Shown one piece after another: positions 5,077 to 57,725 of a stretch of 64,000 nucleotides of DNA. The first letter of the stretch is position 1. Each line of letters opens with the position of its first letter. The notes beneath the pieces are model-generated. The model searched no databases. It was not told the DNA's origin and saw nothing but the letters and a program-made list of their open reading frames with translations. Both the position numbers and the translations under genes were made by a program. Source of the DNA: Aquisphaera giovannonii (GTDB taxonomy: Bacteria > Planctomycetota > Planctomycetia > Isosphaerales > Isosphaeraceae); assembly GCF_008087625.1 (NCBI RefSeq), contig NZ_CP042997.1, positions 9,176,001 through 9,240,000 on the forward strand. The letters are read 5' to 3'.

Positions 5077-5346
5077 ATGGCTGGATACGATCCGGAGATC
5101 CCCGAGGTCCGCCTCTGCGAGGTGGGCAACGAGCAGGAGGCCGCGATGGTCGTCGGCCTCCTCAACGAGGAAGACATCCCCGCCCGCAGCGACGCCACGG
5201 GGTCCTCGCCGGCCTTCGGCGGCCTCCCCTTCGAGTCGGGCCACGCGATCTTCGTCCCCGCCTCCGAGGCCAAGAAGGCCTGCGAGATCCTCAGCCGGTA
5301 TCCGCACTTCAAGGACCTGAAGGACGTCCACGAGCCCCTGGATTGA
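5077..5346 (+). CDS. DUF2007-domain protein
   Basis: The 89-residue protein matches the DUF2007 pattern: EVRLCEVGNEQEAAMVVGLLNEEDIPA followed by a variable loop and a C-terminal IFVPASEAKKACEIL. The fold is a small alpha/beta ferredoxin-like domain, annotated in databases as a putative signal-transducing or PII-like domain without experimental function. An AAGGAG lies 11 bases upstream of the ATG. It sits 31 bases before a glycosyltransferase gene on the same strand and may share its transcript. Confidence 0.85.
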   Translation: MAGYDPEIPEVRLCEVGNEQEAAMVVGLLNEEDIPARSDATGSSPAFGGLPFESGHAIFVPASEAKKACEILSRYPHFKDLKDVHEPLD

Positions 5347-5377
5347 CGGGCTCCCGGCGCCTCGGCGGGCCCGCTCG

Positions 5378-6559
5378 ATGTCCCAGCACCCGGAAAAGCC
5401 CCTCCGCATCGCCCTGCTCGTCAGCTACTTCCACCCCTTCGCCAGCGGCGCGGAGCGGCAGGCGCTGGCGCAGGGCGTCGAGCTCGTCCGCCGCGGCCAC
5501 ACCGTCCACGTCGTCACCCGGAGCGTGCCGGGATATCCGATCGACGACGAGGAATACCGGGGCGTCTCCATCCACCGCTGGATCCGGACCTGGGACCGCG
5601 GGCCGCTCTTCGCGGTCAGCTTCGTCCGCGGGGCGATCCGCGCCCTCGCCCGGCTCCGGGCCGAGATCGACCTGGTGCACACCCACCAGGGCCTCTGGGA
5701 GGCCGTGGCGACGGGCCTCGGGCGGCGCCGGCTGCGGGGCCTCCCCGCGCTCGTCCAGCCGGCGAGCGCGGGCTATTACGGCGAGGCCGACGAGCTGGGG
5801 AGGACGCGGGGGGCGGCCGTCCTCCGCCGCCTGATCCTCCGCAACACCGCGTTCGCGGCGATCTCCGCGGAGATCGAGCGGCAGTGGCTACAGCTCGGCG
5901 TGCCGCCCGGGCGCATGGTCCGCACCGCCAGCGGCGTGGACGCGGACCATTTCCGGCCCGGCCCCAGCGCCGTCGAGGGCGAGCTCCTCCCCCGGCCCCG
6001 CGTCCTGTTCACCGGCCGGCTGCATCCCCAGAAGAACCTCCCGATGCTCCTGGAAGCCTGGGCCGTCGCGAGCCGGCGTGTCCCCGGCAGCCTGATCCTC
6101 CTGGGCCCGGGCGAGGACCGCGAGGCCCTGCGGGCCCTGTCCGAGGGGCTCGGGCTCGCCGGCCGCGTGCAGCTCGCCGGCCCGGTCGCGGACCCCGCCG
6201 ACTACCTCCGCGCGGCGGACCTCTTCGTCCTGCCGAGCGTGGCCGAGGGGATGAGCAACTCCCTCCTGGAGGCGATGGCCACCGGCCTGCCCTGCCTCGC
6301 CTCCGGCATCGGCGGCAACGTGGACCTGATCGCCGACCGGGTCACCGGCCGCCTCGTCGCCGAGCCGACCCCCTCGGCCTGGTCCGACGCGCTGGTCGAG
6401 GTGCTCTCCGACCCGGAGGCCGCGACGCGGATGGGCGCCGCCGCCCGCTCCCGGATCGAGGCGCGCTACGCCCTGCCGGCGGTCGTGGACCGCTACGTGT
6501 CCATCTACCGGGACATGATCGCCGGGCGGTGGCCCGGCGCGGATGCCCGCCTCCCGTAG
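5378..6559 (+). CDS. Glycosyltransferase family 4
   Basis: A 393-residue GT-B fold enzyme. The N-terminal half has the acceptor-domain hallmark SYFHPFASGAERQALAQG. The C-terminal half has FTGRLHPQKNLPMLLEAW and the retaining-GT4 EX7E motif in EGMSNSLLEAMATGLP. It should transfer a sugar from a nucleotide- or lipid-linked donor onto a glycan at the cytoplasmic face. Donor and acceptor cannot be read from sequence. No other polysaccharide genes adjoin it, so the pathway is unknown. Confidence 0.9.
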   Translation: MSQHPEKPLRIALLVSYFHPFASGAERQALAQGVELVRRGHTVHVVTRSVPGYPIDDEEYRGVSIHRWIRTWDRGPLFAVSFVRGAIRALARLRAEIDLVHTHQGLWEAVATGLGRRRLRGLPALVQPASAGYYGEADELGRTRGAAVLRRLILRNTAFAAISAEIERQWLQLGVPPGRMVRTASGVDADHFRPGPSAVEGELLPRPRVLFTGRLHPQKNLPMLLEAWAVASRRVPGSLILLGPGEDREALRALSEGLGLAGRVQLAGPVADPADYLRAADLFVLPSVAEGMSNSLLEAMATGLPCLASGIGGNVDLIADRVTGRLVAEPTPSAWSDALVEVLSDPEAATRMGAAARSRIEARYALPAVVDRYVSIYRDMIAGRWPGADARLP

Positions 6560-25564: not shown

Positions 25565-26626
25565 TCAACGGCGGAGGATGATCGCCGTGTCGCCGGCCCG
25601 CTCCACCACCCGGCCGATCACGGCCGAGGCCGCGGCGCCGCGGGACTCCAGCCCCTTGATCAGGGCCCCGACGCGATCGGCCGCGATCGCGACGAGGAGG
25701 CCGCCGGAGGTCTGAGGGTCGAAGGCGAGCTCGACTCCCATGGGGGCCGCGTCCTGGGCCGTCTCCAGGCGCCCCTGGAGGAACTCCCGGTTCGTCCGGC
25801 TCGTCCTCGTGTGGAAGCGGGGGATGGCCAGGGCCTCGGCCCCCTCGATCGCGGGCAGAGAGCCGGTGTCGATCTCGATCGTGACCCCCGCGCCGTCGGC
25901 CATCTCGGAGGCGTGACCGGCCAGGCCGTAGCCGGTGACGTCCGTCAACGCGTGGGCGCCGCCGGCCTCGCGGAGGGCGTCGCGGCCGACCTCGTTCAGC
26001 TCGATCATCGACGCGAGGGCCCGCGCCAGGACTCCCTCCGGGCACTCCTCGCGCTTGGCGGCCGTGGTGACGAAGCCCGTGCCCAGCGGCTTGGTCAGGA
26101 CGAGCACGTCGCCGGGCCGTGCCCCGGCGTTGGTGAGCATCTCGGCCGGGTGGACGAGCCCCGTGACGCTGAGGCCGAACTTCACCTCCTTGTCGCGCAC
26201 GGTGTGGCCGCCGAGGGTCGTCGCGCCGGCCCTGGCGACGCGGTCGGCCGCGCCGCGGAGGATCTCCCCCAGGACCTCCAGGGGGAGCTCGTCGTCCGGA
26301 AACCCCGCGATGTTCAGCACCGTGACCGGCCGGGCGTTCATCGCGTAGACGTCCGAGAGCGCATTGGCCGCGGCGACCTGGCCGAAGGCGAACGGGTCGT
26401 CCACGACGGGCGGGAAGAAGTCCAGCGTCTGGACCATCGCCAGGTCGTCCGAAAGGCGATAGACGCCCGCGTCGTCCATGGTCTCGGTCGCGACCAGGAC
26501 GTTCGGGTCGTGTGGCCTCGGCGGTAGGCCGCGCAGGACCTGCGCGATCCCCAGGGGGGAAATCTTGCCCGCTCAGCCGGCGCAGTTGGCGTAGTCGGTG
26601 AGCCGCTTCTTCCGCCCGGGATTCAC
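25565..26626 (-). CDS. selD: Selenide, water dikinase SelD, itself a selenoprotein (in-frame UGA)
   Basis: SelD makes selenophosphate from selenide and ATP, the selenium donor for Sec-tRNA. Reading from the GTG at 26626 through a TGA at 26573-26575 gives LTDYANCAGUAGKISPLG, with Sec at residue 18 exactly where SelD has its catalytic Cys/Sec, then ...TETMDDAGVYRL and the conserved core TLDFFPPVVDDPFAFGQVAAAN, GGHTVRDKEVKFGLSVTG and FDPQTSGGLL. Total 353 residues, normal for the family. Stopping at the TGA and restarting at 26479 would delete the active-site loop. A hairpin 30-odd bases past the UGA is a SECIS candidate. The stop lies nine bases from the convergent cytochrome gene's end. Confidence 0.93.
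26530..26546 (-). promoter_or_regulatory. Putative bacterial SECIS hairpin in selD
   Basis: On the coding strand, CGCGCAG-GTC-CTGCGCG is a perfect 7-bp stem with a three-base GUC loop. The apical GCAGGUC resembles the apical part of the E. coli fdhF SECIS. The loop is about 33-35 bases after the UGA, inside the range usually quoted for bacterial SECIS elements (roughly 16-37). SelB would bind here to deliver Sec-tRNA. Confidence 0.6.
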
Positions 26627-26715
26627 GATCGCGGCCCTGCCCTTTCCATGAACGAAGCTCGACGGCCCGGCGCCCGCCCAGGAGGACGCCCAGTGGGCGG
26701 AGGATCAATCCGGCT

Positions 26716-26808
26716 CTCCCCCTTACGAAGGGGGAGTCGGAGGGGGTGAATTCCGCAAGCCGAGGCGGTCGAATTCCCCCCCTGTATCCCCCCTTCGCAA
26801 GGGGGGAA
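26716..26808 (+). repeat. MITE-like palindromic repeat, family A, copy 2
   Basis: About 93 bases, the same element as at 1906-2000 and 57394-57483. The left end is CCCCCTTACGAAGGGGGAGT, the middle GCCGAGGCGGTCGAATTCC and the right end CCTGTATCCCCCCTTCGCAA. It lies in the 260-base gap between the SelW-like gene and selD, where a transcript hairpin would form between the two selenoprotein genes. Confidence 0.82.
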
Positions 26809-26888
26809 GTGAAATCCGGCTCCCCCGTTCCACCGAGCGGGAGCCGGGGGGCGGGGATCTAACGCGCCGACCCTCGGGAACGAACTCC

Positions 26889-27128
26889 TCAGTCGCCGAG
26901 GGCCTTGCCGACGGCGGCGACCATCGCGTCCTCGTCAGGGAACTTGCCGGTCTCCAGCTTCGAGTAGAGGCGCTTGCCGCCCACGGTCAGCTCGAAGCAC
27001 CCGCCCTTCGACGGGATCAGCTCGTACCGGCGGATCTGCCGCTTGTACCGCGGCAACAGCTTGGCCGTCAAACTGACGGCCTGGGGCTCATAGCCTCAAA
27101 GAGCGCAATATTCAAGAGTTACGTCCAT
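26889..27128 (-). CDS. SelW-like Rdx family selenoprotein (CxxU, in-frame UGA)
   Basis: Reading from the ATG at 27128 gives MDVTLEYCALUGYEPQAVSL, where U is a TGA at 27096-27098, followed by TAKLLPRYKRQIRRYELIPS, GGCFELTVGG, YSKLETGKFPDEDAM and the stop: 79 residues. This is the complete thioredoxin-like Rdx (SelW/SelT/SelH) fold, with the redox motif CxxU after the first beta strand and the GGCFEV-type strand typical of SelW. Without read-through only a 60-residue stub lacking the active site remains. These are small thiol/selenol oxidoreductases of unsettled substrate. A perfect hairpin just past the UGA supports Sec insertion. It lies upstream of selD on the same strand. Confidence 0.9.
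27063..27081 (-). promoter_or_regulatory. Putative bacterial SECIS hairpin in the SelW-like gene
   Basis: The coding strand has GGCCGTCA-GTT-TGACGGCC, a perfect 8-bp stem with a GUU loop. The loop centre is about 24 bases after the UGA, within the bacterial SECIS range. The stem lies inside coding sequence (A-V-S-L-T-A), so its exact complementarity in a conserved protein segment is notable. Confidence 0.65.
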
Positions 27129-27202
27129 CGTCCGCTCGCGAAAAAGGGGCCGGAGAGGGGCCGATCGCCGGACCGGCCGTTTCTATCATCCTAGCGCGCC
27201 GG

Positions 27203-28414
27203 TCAACCGCGCGGCTCCCCGGTGGCGGCCCCGGCCTGCTCCTTCCCCTTGGCGACGGCCCGCGCGGCGACGCCCGCCGGGGCGATCGGCGGTCCGTGGA
27301 GCGTCTCGACGAGGGTCGCGGCCAGCGCGGGGTCGCCGTCGTCCGGGTCGGGCGACTGCCAGTCCACGCTCATCAGCTCGGCCCACCGGTTCAGCTCCGG
27401 GACCGACTGGAAGAAGAGCTTCAGGCTGACGGTGATGGGCATGGCCAGGACCAGGCCGATCAGGCCCCAGAGGAAGCCCCAGAAGAGGCAGGCGACCAGG
27501 ACCGTCGTGCCGTTGAGGTCCAGCGAGCGGCCCAGCACCATCGGCGTGACGACGTAGCCCTCCACGCCGACCGCCGCGAGGTACATCGCCGCCACCAGCA
27601 GGGCGTCGCCGATCGACCCGTTCTGCCCGATCGCGACGACCGTGGGCAGCGCCCCGCCGAGGAGCTGGCCGATATACGGGACGAAGTTCGTGACCCCCGC
27701 GAAGAGCCCCAGCGCCAGGGCGTAGTGGATGTTGAGCAGCCAGAGGCCGCCGGCGATGACCAGGCCGAGCCCGAGGTTGATGATCGTCCGCGCCACGAGG
27801 TAGACGCGGATCTTGCGGGTGACCTGGCCGAGCATCAGGCTGGTCCGGTCGGCCTCCCCGGTGGTCCGGGAGGCGAACCGGATGACCTTGTGGGTCAGCA
27901 TCGGCCCCTCGACCAGGAGGAAGATGACCAGGACGAGGACGATGAACCCCTCGACGGCCCAGAACGAGAGGTCCGCGAAGCTGTAGGTCATCTTCTCGAT
28001 CAGGATCGCGCTGTTGGTGTCGCCCAGGCGGTCGATCGTCCCCGGGTCGGGCAGGACGCCGCGGAGGTACGGCTGCGCCCGGACGACCTCGTTGATCCGC
28101 TTGCTGACCTGGCCGGCCAGCCGCTCCACCTCGGCGGGGATCGTCTGCGTGCCGCGGATCAGGCTCTCGGCCGTCAGGCTGGCGACATACAGGCCCCCGG
28201 CGATCAGCAGCAGCACGAGCGCCAGCGCCCCGAGCGACCCGAACGGGAACCATCGCCGGAAGAAGGACGCCACCGGGGCGAACATGCAGGCGAGCACCAG
28301 CGCCAGGGCGATCGGCACGAGGATGATCCGCATCAGGTAGAGCGCGCCGATCACGGCCAGGACGGCGAGCACCACCTGCGAGGACGTGGCATATCTCCCC
28401 TGCCGCTCCGCCAA
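27203..28414 (-). CDS. AI-2E family transporter
   Basis: A 403-residue membrane protein of the AI-2E (UPF0118/PerM/TqsA) family. It has eight predicted helices in the usual 3+2+3 grouping around a long periplasmic helical segment (about residues 65-150). The signature VTNFVPYIGQLLGGALP lies near the centre, and GFLWGLIGLVLAMPI in the last hydrophobic cluster. Members move autoinducer-2, Na+/H+ or other solutes; the substrate is not predictable. The start is TTG with a GGGGGG RBS; the C-terminus is Ala/Pro-rich. It ends 74 bases before the SelW-like gene, so it may head that transcript. Confidence 0.88.
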   Translation of the reverse strand: MAERQGRYATSSQVVLAVLAVIGALYLMRIILVPIALALVLACMFAPVASFFRRWFPFGSLGALALVLLLIAGGLYVASLTAESLIRGTQTIPAEVERLAGQVSKRINEVVRAQPYLRGVLPDPGTIDRLGDTNSAILIEKMTYSFADLSFWAVEGFIVLVLVIFLLVEGPMLTHKVIRFASRTTGEADRTSLMLGQVTRKIRVYLVARTIINLGLGLVIAGGLWLLNIHYALALGLFAGVTNFVPYIGQLLGGALPTVVAIGQNGSIGDALLVAAMYLAAVGVEGYVVTPMVLGRSLDLNGTTVLVACLFWGFLWGLIGLVLAMPITVSLKLFFQSVPELNRWAELMSVDWQSPDPDDGDPALAATLVETLHGPPIAPAGVAARAVAKGKEQAGAATGEPRG

Positions 28415-57307: not shown

Positions 57308-57725
57308 CGCGCGGCCCCGTCGATGACGAAGAAGATCCCCCACGAGATATCTTATCCAATCCGCGAACGTGGAGACAGCCGGGGCGATCGACGGCCTTAC
57401 GAAGGGGGAGTGGGAGGGGGTGGATTCCTCAGGCCGAGGCGGTCGAATCCCCCCCCCTGTATCCCCCCTTCGTAAGGGGGGAATCGAATCCGGCCTTCCC
57501 CTCACCGAGGGGTATGAGAGCCTCAGGACCCGGACAACGTGATCCTCTACCTCGCCGGGGTAATAGCAGGCCGGAGAAGCCGCCCGACGTGGACGCACAC
57601 CTCATCGCCGTTCCGGGCCGCGAACCTCCGCAACGATGGGGGACCATTCGCGATGCCGATGAGGCTCCCCGGGCCATACTAACGCCCGGGGTCGCATGGG
57701 GTGGACGAACGCATTCGACCGCGGC
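57308..57725. other. Intergenic region with MITE-like repeat
   Basis: About 420 bases without a gene, upstream of the HEPN-partner gene and downstream of the Gly/Met-repeat gene (both minus strand). It contains the family A repeat at 57394-57483; the rest (57490-57725) is GC-rich without features I can name. Confidence 0.5.
57394..57483 (+). repeat. MITE-like palindromic repeat, family A, copy 3
   Basis: The left end CCTTACGAAGGGGGAG, middle GGCCGAGGCGGTCGAAT and right end CCCCCCTTCGTAAGGGGGG repeat those at 1906 and 26716. This copy has an almost perfect terminal inverted repeat (CTTACGAAGGGGG against CCCCCTTCGTAAG). Confidence 0.85.

Follow-up and report, generated by a model that had tools for sequence, protein, structure and literature searches.

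SelW-like selenoproteins with a CxxU redox motif have been known since 2005, when they ranked first in abundance among the families of the Sargasso Sea set (PMC1088965), and the same family topped the GOS set (PMC2398784). Very few or no Cys homologues of SelW-like proteins are described in organisms that contain selenocysteine (Sec) (PMC1794560). A 2026 review treats SELENOW-like as a standard family with CxxU and one Sec; as far as its available text goes, it lists Prx-SELENOW clusters, not SELENOW-SelD, and gives UxxU for other prokaryotic families, SELENOW-like not among them (PMC13188914). No selW-selD operon is named in that part of the review, and we limit this statement to that source. 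Sec use in Planctomycetes, such as we describe here, is already in print: full Sec-insertion gene sets are given for Isosphaera pallida and Gemmata obscuriglobus, and selenoproteins for two Porphyra-associated planctomycete strains, with the term SelW (in that spelling) absent from the main text as available to us (PMC4807772). Our literature searches found no paper joining Aquisphaera and selenocysteine, and nothing on topic by title for selenoprotein, selenocysteine, and Planctomycetota together.

Here we analyze a gene in a 64-kb stretch of DNA (the window) from a planctomycete near Aquisphaera. As in the bacterial SelW-like family described so far (PF10262/TIGR02174), it encodes an Rdx protein with CxxU and a hairpin after the UGA, in a host that decodes Sec (PMC1088965, PMC1794560, PMC2398784, and PMC13188914, each as far as its available text goes); it differs from the described members in its planctomycete source and in adjoining selD. 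The gene itself is ordinary. Less expected are its place upstream of a selD that itself appears to carry Sec and, in two related metagenome-assembled genomes (MAGs), a UxxU form.

Results

The selW frame and its Sec codon

When TGA is read as Sec (U), a frame on the reverse strand runs MDVTLEYCALUGYEPQAVSLTAKLL...KALGD-stop (27128-26889), with U as the second position of a C8-x-x-U11 redox motif (Table 1). An ORF listing under translation table 11 holds just 26889..27071 at this place, 60 aa with a TTG start. The first-pass annotation had reported the same coordinates and frame, the Sec codon TGA at 27098-27096 in the CxxU site, and the C-terminal 60-residue stub that is left without read-through, and our analysis agrees with it on each of these. 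Its further statement that ordinary gene calling misses the gene is true of plain ORF calling; in NCBIfam, the family already has a model named "(seleno)protein." The reading of this one gene is corrected accordingly, from a 60-aa stub to a selenoprotein.

Table 1. Features of the selW-selD region (window coordinates)
Feature	Position	Strand	Remark
selW/rdx gene, 79 aa, CxxU motif	26889..27128	-	stop TGA at 26891-26889
Sec codon UGA, residue 11 of SelW	27096..27098	-	TGA at same column in 65/65 related loci
Candidate bacterial SECIS hairpin	27063..27081	-	8 bp, loop GUU, UGA-to-loop 22 nt
Dispersed inverted-repeat element in the selW-selD gap	26708..26815	.	17-nt arms 26718-26734 / 26789-26805
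selD (selenide, water dikinase), itself with Sec codon	25565..26626	-	TIGR00476; GTG start at 26626 read from frame
selD Sec codon UGA, motif ANCAGU-AGK	26573..26575	-	frame with TGA=U

With the TGA read as Sec, the protein matches Pfam Rdx (PF10262) at 61.3 bits against a cut-off of 22.6 (E 1.1e-16) and TIGR02174 (CXXU_selWTH) at 60.2 bits against 34.2. It scores 69 bits with the equivalog NF041051 (SelTWH_Campy), below the cut-off of 88, and is not filed there. It is the one Rdx protein that we found in the source genome. To collect relatives, we scanned genome contigs once with conserved flanking-peptide patterns, which flank the U codon without covering it and favor close kin. This gave 65 related loci, the nearest named genome being Aquisphaera insulae (L012; 95% identical). 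When these are read with TGA=U, all 65 have TGA at the Sec codon; together with the window sequence, 64 of the 66 have CxxU and 2 have UxxU. Given the Pfam E-value and the TGA kept at every locus, the frame is, by these sequence comparisons, clearly more than chance. The worry that the TGA is an error that resequencing would remove is very unlikely to be justified, with the same TGA on 65 separate contigs. At 16 of the 66 loci (between L024 and L076), a divergent gene lies on the opposite strand 31 to 108 nt upstream of selW; it may encode a Tsr3/DUF367-type protein.

We built an AlphaFold model of the protein from a 40-row alignment (window SelW and relatives, 40 of the 66 sequences). The model, with a mean pLDDT of 88.1, predicts a thioredoxin-like SelW fold and matches the bacterial SelW-related structures 2fa8, 2obk, 2p0g, 3dex, 2oka, and 2ojl with a TM of about 0.8 to 0.9. 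A sequence search of the PDB returned eight distinct sequences at E <= 0.1, the best at 1.5e-7. Two eukaryotic proteins, mouse SelW (2npb; E 2.3e-4) and MIEN1/C17orf37 (2ljk; E 1.5e-7), are akin to the window protein both by sequence and by fold, but the bacterial structures fit better, with TM by query length of 0.82 to 0.90 versus 0.70 for 2npb and 0.61 for 2ljk. The U column is Cys in solved SelW-type proteins (three alignments examined). The comparison with homologues that had been suggested on first reading gave U at the same column in relatives and Cys there in solved bacterial and human Rdx proteins.

Sec machinery and the spread of TGA-coded SelW

The source genome (10.5 Mb in 3 contigs) carries a tRNA-Sec whose anticodon is TCA (UCA), at 77.1 bits, selA at 475 bits, and selB at 331 bits (370 with neighbors); its selD lies inside the window, at 25565..26626. 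A tRNA scan of the 64-kb window found none. The first-pass annotation had tied its reading to selA, selB, and tRNA-Sec(UCA), and all three are in the same genome as the gene.

We then searched 294 genomes drawn from Planctomycetota for the Rdx family independently of the peptide patterns. Rdx is present in 109 of them, and in 106 of these one or more copies contain an internal TGA, so among the Rdx-carrying Planctomycetota sampled SelW is usually TGA-coded. Only TGA-free copies occur in three genomes (G003, G168, and G254, the match in G254 being marginal). A strong selA, defined by a best E of 5.5e-87 or better (168 genomes; 171 are over the curated cut-off), is found in 101 of the 106 TGA-Rdx genomes versus 67 of the remaining 188 (Fisher p 2.5e-26, which is not literal, as the genomes are related). 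The search gave no selA match in any of the three genomes with TGA-free Rdx alone. Five TGA-Rdx genomes lack a strong selA (G008, G038, G061, G143, and G268); completeness is 90 to 92% in all five.

The candidate SECIS hairpin

Downstream of the UGA lies a 19-nt palindrome, GGCCGUCA-GUU-UGACGGCC at 27081-27063. The 8-bp perfect hairpin of the first-pass annotation is exact, and we measure 22 nt from the UGA to the loop. Published limits for a bacterial SECIS (bSECIS), taken from the available text of the review, are a loop of 3 to 9 nt, a stem of 4 to 16 bp, a G in the first two loop bases, a spacing of 16 to 37 nt, and MFE <= -7.5 (PMC13188914). The window hairpin lies within them (3-nt loop GUU, 8 bp, spacing 22, -13.2 kcal/mol when folded alone), as had been claimed, though the model is permissive: it is passed by 228 of the 1262 TGAs in the window and by 4376 of 20,000 synonymous recodings of selW. 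An equally stable hairpin that conforms to the model accompanies 39 of the 1262 TGAs (that of selW included) and appears in 697 of the 20,000 recodings; among 200 dinucleotide shuffles, 3 reach the folding stability of the native sequence. Taken alone, the window hairpin is only moderately more than chance, and after the synonymous-recoding and all-TGA controls we dropped a strong claim from it. Among the 66 sequences, 31 pass all bSECIS limits with an uninterrupted stem; the closest relative, L012, breaks one pair and fails. Five relatives folded singly (L053, L059, L012, L043, and L064) gave z-scores of -0.15 to -1.65.

The conservation of the hairpin among relatives is stronger evidence than these single-sequence results. 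Among 53 distinct sequences encoding the same peptide, two pairs that join wobble positions on both sides go from C-G to T-A together (p 0.0002 and 0.03): the first is C-G in 42, T-A in 5, T-G in 2, and unpaired in 4, and the other is C-G in 46, T-A in 2, and unpaired in 5. The third such pair, located at the base of the stem, gave no signal (paired 42% versus 45% in shuffles). A 51-row alignment has seven cells with two-sided changes, a count reached by none of 500 shuffles, and three pairs with a two-sided change, reached by 9 of 500. Its share of paired cells is 80.6% versus 79.7% in shuffles (matched or passed by 26 of 500), and additional pair types show no excess (229 of 500). The outer three pairs of the hairpin are unpaired in 19, 22, and 29 of the 51 sequences. 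As a control, we slid the register by +3, keeping codon register. This also gave seven two-sided cells, but only 35% of cells pair; the covariation score is 0.097 for the slide versus 0.062 for the hairpin register. The Ser codon in the loop is AGT in 53 of 57 genes and AGC in the other 4, never TCN, whereas elsewhere in the same 57 genes 186 of 250 Ser codons are TCN. Four loci (L043, L055, L063, and L064) use the codons GTG-AGC-CTG-ACC for the same peptide, and when folded, L043 and L064 form a shifted hairpin, TCAGGC-CGUGA-GCCTGA. An Rfam search of 26400-27300 found no match on the hairpin; its ten matches (E up to 1, each far under its gathering score) all overlap or adjoin the inverted repeat. 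On this comparison of relatives, we assign the SECIS to the core hairpin, its exact boundaries being approximate.

Probable Sec insertion and alternative readings

Together, the conserved frame, the machinery, the hairpin, and the predicted fold indicate that the window gene is very probably a bacterial SelW-like (Rdx family) selenoprotein in which Sec is inserted at the UGA by way of the hairpin. SelB with Sec-tRNA(UCA) would bind the hairpin during translation, its loop 22 nt past the UGA. Sec would then go in at residue 11 and complete the C8-x-x-U11 redox site, which sits where the first strand of the predicted thioredoxin-like Rdx fold ends. The product would most likely be a small thiol/selenol oxidoreductase that works through a Cys-Sec selenenylsulfide.

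If the TGA were a true stop, the locus would be a pseudogene or the product of a sequencing error and would encode a C-terminal stub at most, and translation table 11 indeed yields the 60-aa ORF and no more. We consider this extremely improbable: the genome has Sec machinery, and all 65 related loci, each on its own contig, share the TGA, with a frame conserved on both sides of it. On this conservation we rejected a pseudogene or sequencing error. Frame conservation alone does not name the residue, and a near-cognate or Cys-charged UGA-decoding tRNA could in principle read the codon to give a non-selenium Rdx protein. The genomes speak against such decoding, which we hold to be very improbable: TGA-coded Rdx tracks selA (101 of 106), the three genomes with TGA-free Rdx alone have no selA match, the source genome has tRNA-Sec(TCA), and the core of the hairpin is conserved, its loop being of the GU type.

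A different question is whether the SECIS is an overlapping or longer structure, with the palindrome at 27063-27081 partly a by-product of encoding the peptide QAVSLTA. Such a structure would be compatible with Sec insertion at the UGA, and several results point to it: the rarity of the hairpin in a single sequence is just about 3%, the four loci with other codons encode the same peptide and two of them (L043 and L064) shift the hairpin, one pair is broken in L012, and the +3 slide shows comparable changes. The peptide, however, explains neither the two-sided wobble changes in the hairpin register nor the fixed AGY serine codon of the loop, and we regard this alternative as unlikely. The reading that we prefer remains Sec insertion through the core hairpin.

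The selD neighbor

The product of the gene downstream of selW, on the same strand, matches TIGR00476 at 356.4 bits against a cut-off of 125. To see how common this order is, we used the 62 relatives whose sequence extends 600 nt or more beyond selW; the remaining 3 of the 65, being shorter, were dropped. Besides the window, 20 of these have selW followed directly downstream by selD in the same orientation (L012, L013, L014, L017, L020, L021, L022, L036, L038, L039, L040, L042, L049, L053, L054, L057, L059, L066, L069, and L076), although L040, L049, L054, L057, and L076 form one tight group, which leaves fewer independent cases than 20. The gap in these loci is 12 to 254 nt, counted between match ends and not gene ends. 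In L024 and L068, selD or a selD-like gene follows selW on the opposite strand; this search found no selD after selW in the other 40 of the 62. Of the 20 adjacent selD relatives, 17 have U and 2 have Cys (L012 and L036); L066 is unreadable. SelD of Aquisphaera insulae (L012, about 5299-6333) has Cys where the window SelD has Sec, and SelW has Sec in both. Judged from this pair of genomes, the Sec/Cys change in SelD is a recent one. We do not claim a SECIS for selD because folding of the 50 nt that follow its UGA does not stand out from shuffled sequences (z -1.03), of which 34 in 200 do as well.

The gene selW is probably co-transcribed with selD, which in the window is not certain because a dispersed inverted repeat separates them. 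The element is about 105 nt long and has at least 57 matches in the genome (40 of 181 candidates were scored); about 40 copies are near full length, at 85 to 93% identity, and another lies in the window near 57395. An exact-match search of the repeat motif in the window gave one copy, and a looser search of the genome gave many. The element at 26708-26815 looks like a dispersed repeat of the REP/MITE type.

UxxU relatives and a possible link to selenophosphate synthesis

The two UxxU loci, L053 (5001-5219) and L059 (5001-5222), come from two Centralia MAGs and encode SelW with two in-frame TGAs, Y-U-x-x-U (also read in L112 and L113). Their selW genes differ at 29 of 219 bases. Since 19 of these differences fall at third positions, both TGAs look maintained, and the protein is possibly an Rdx with two Sec residues. 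Both genomes have tRNA-Sec(TCA). The closest relatives, L114 and L115, are CxxU. A wider search in the family to which L053 belongs gave a match in 75 of 95 genomes; of 30 loci fetched, 29 were read, 26 as CxxU and 3 as UxxU, the third being L141. The selW-selD order occurs in 10 of the 30, with flanks of about 1.5 kb or less and organisms that partly overlap the first set. A strict UxxU pattern had 0 matches in 392 planctomycetotal genomes.

According to the available text of the 2026 review, the in vivo selenium form used by SelD and the donor system are incompletely elucidated (PMC13188914). One reading of our data is that, in planctomycetes of the Isosphaeraceae/Gemmataceae type, SelW and SelD work as partners. 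The genes selW and selD, often both with Sec, would form an operon serving selenophosphate synthesis because SelW would carry or reduce selenium for it, or keep the selenocysteine of SelD reduced; in a side lineage, the UxxU form would be a two-Sec Rdx, one hairpin perhaps serving two UGAs that start nine bases apart. We put this forward as a speculative proposal that is unlikely to hold. If true, it would assign bacterial SelW a definite role and provide SelD with a candidate donor. The selW-selD order and the UxxU relatives offer two cheap entries to bacterial SelW function.

The third UxxU locus, L141 (around 1518, reverse strand), is identical to the CxxU locus L129 at 207 of 213 bases. 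We considered it as a second origin of UxxU and rejected this, all six differences from L129 being in the first 27 bases; that distribution looks more like the trace of recombination or of a seam in the assembly.

A further tRNA, similar to tRNA-Sec and long in its variable arm, occurs in each of the two UxxU genomes (L111:1501-1596 in G461:C328 and L142:1427-1524 in G462:C12). The anticodon loop of each contains TGCAAA, from which ARAGORN assigns the tRNA of L111 to Cys (GCA) and that of L142 to Phe (AAA); the arms were read by eye. They resemble the selC-type tRNA-Cys described, in the available text of that report, from other phyla (PMC7609411).
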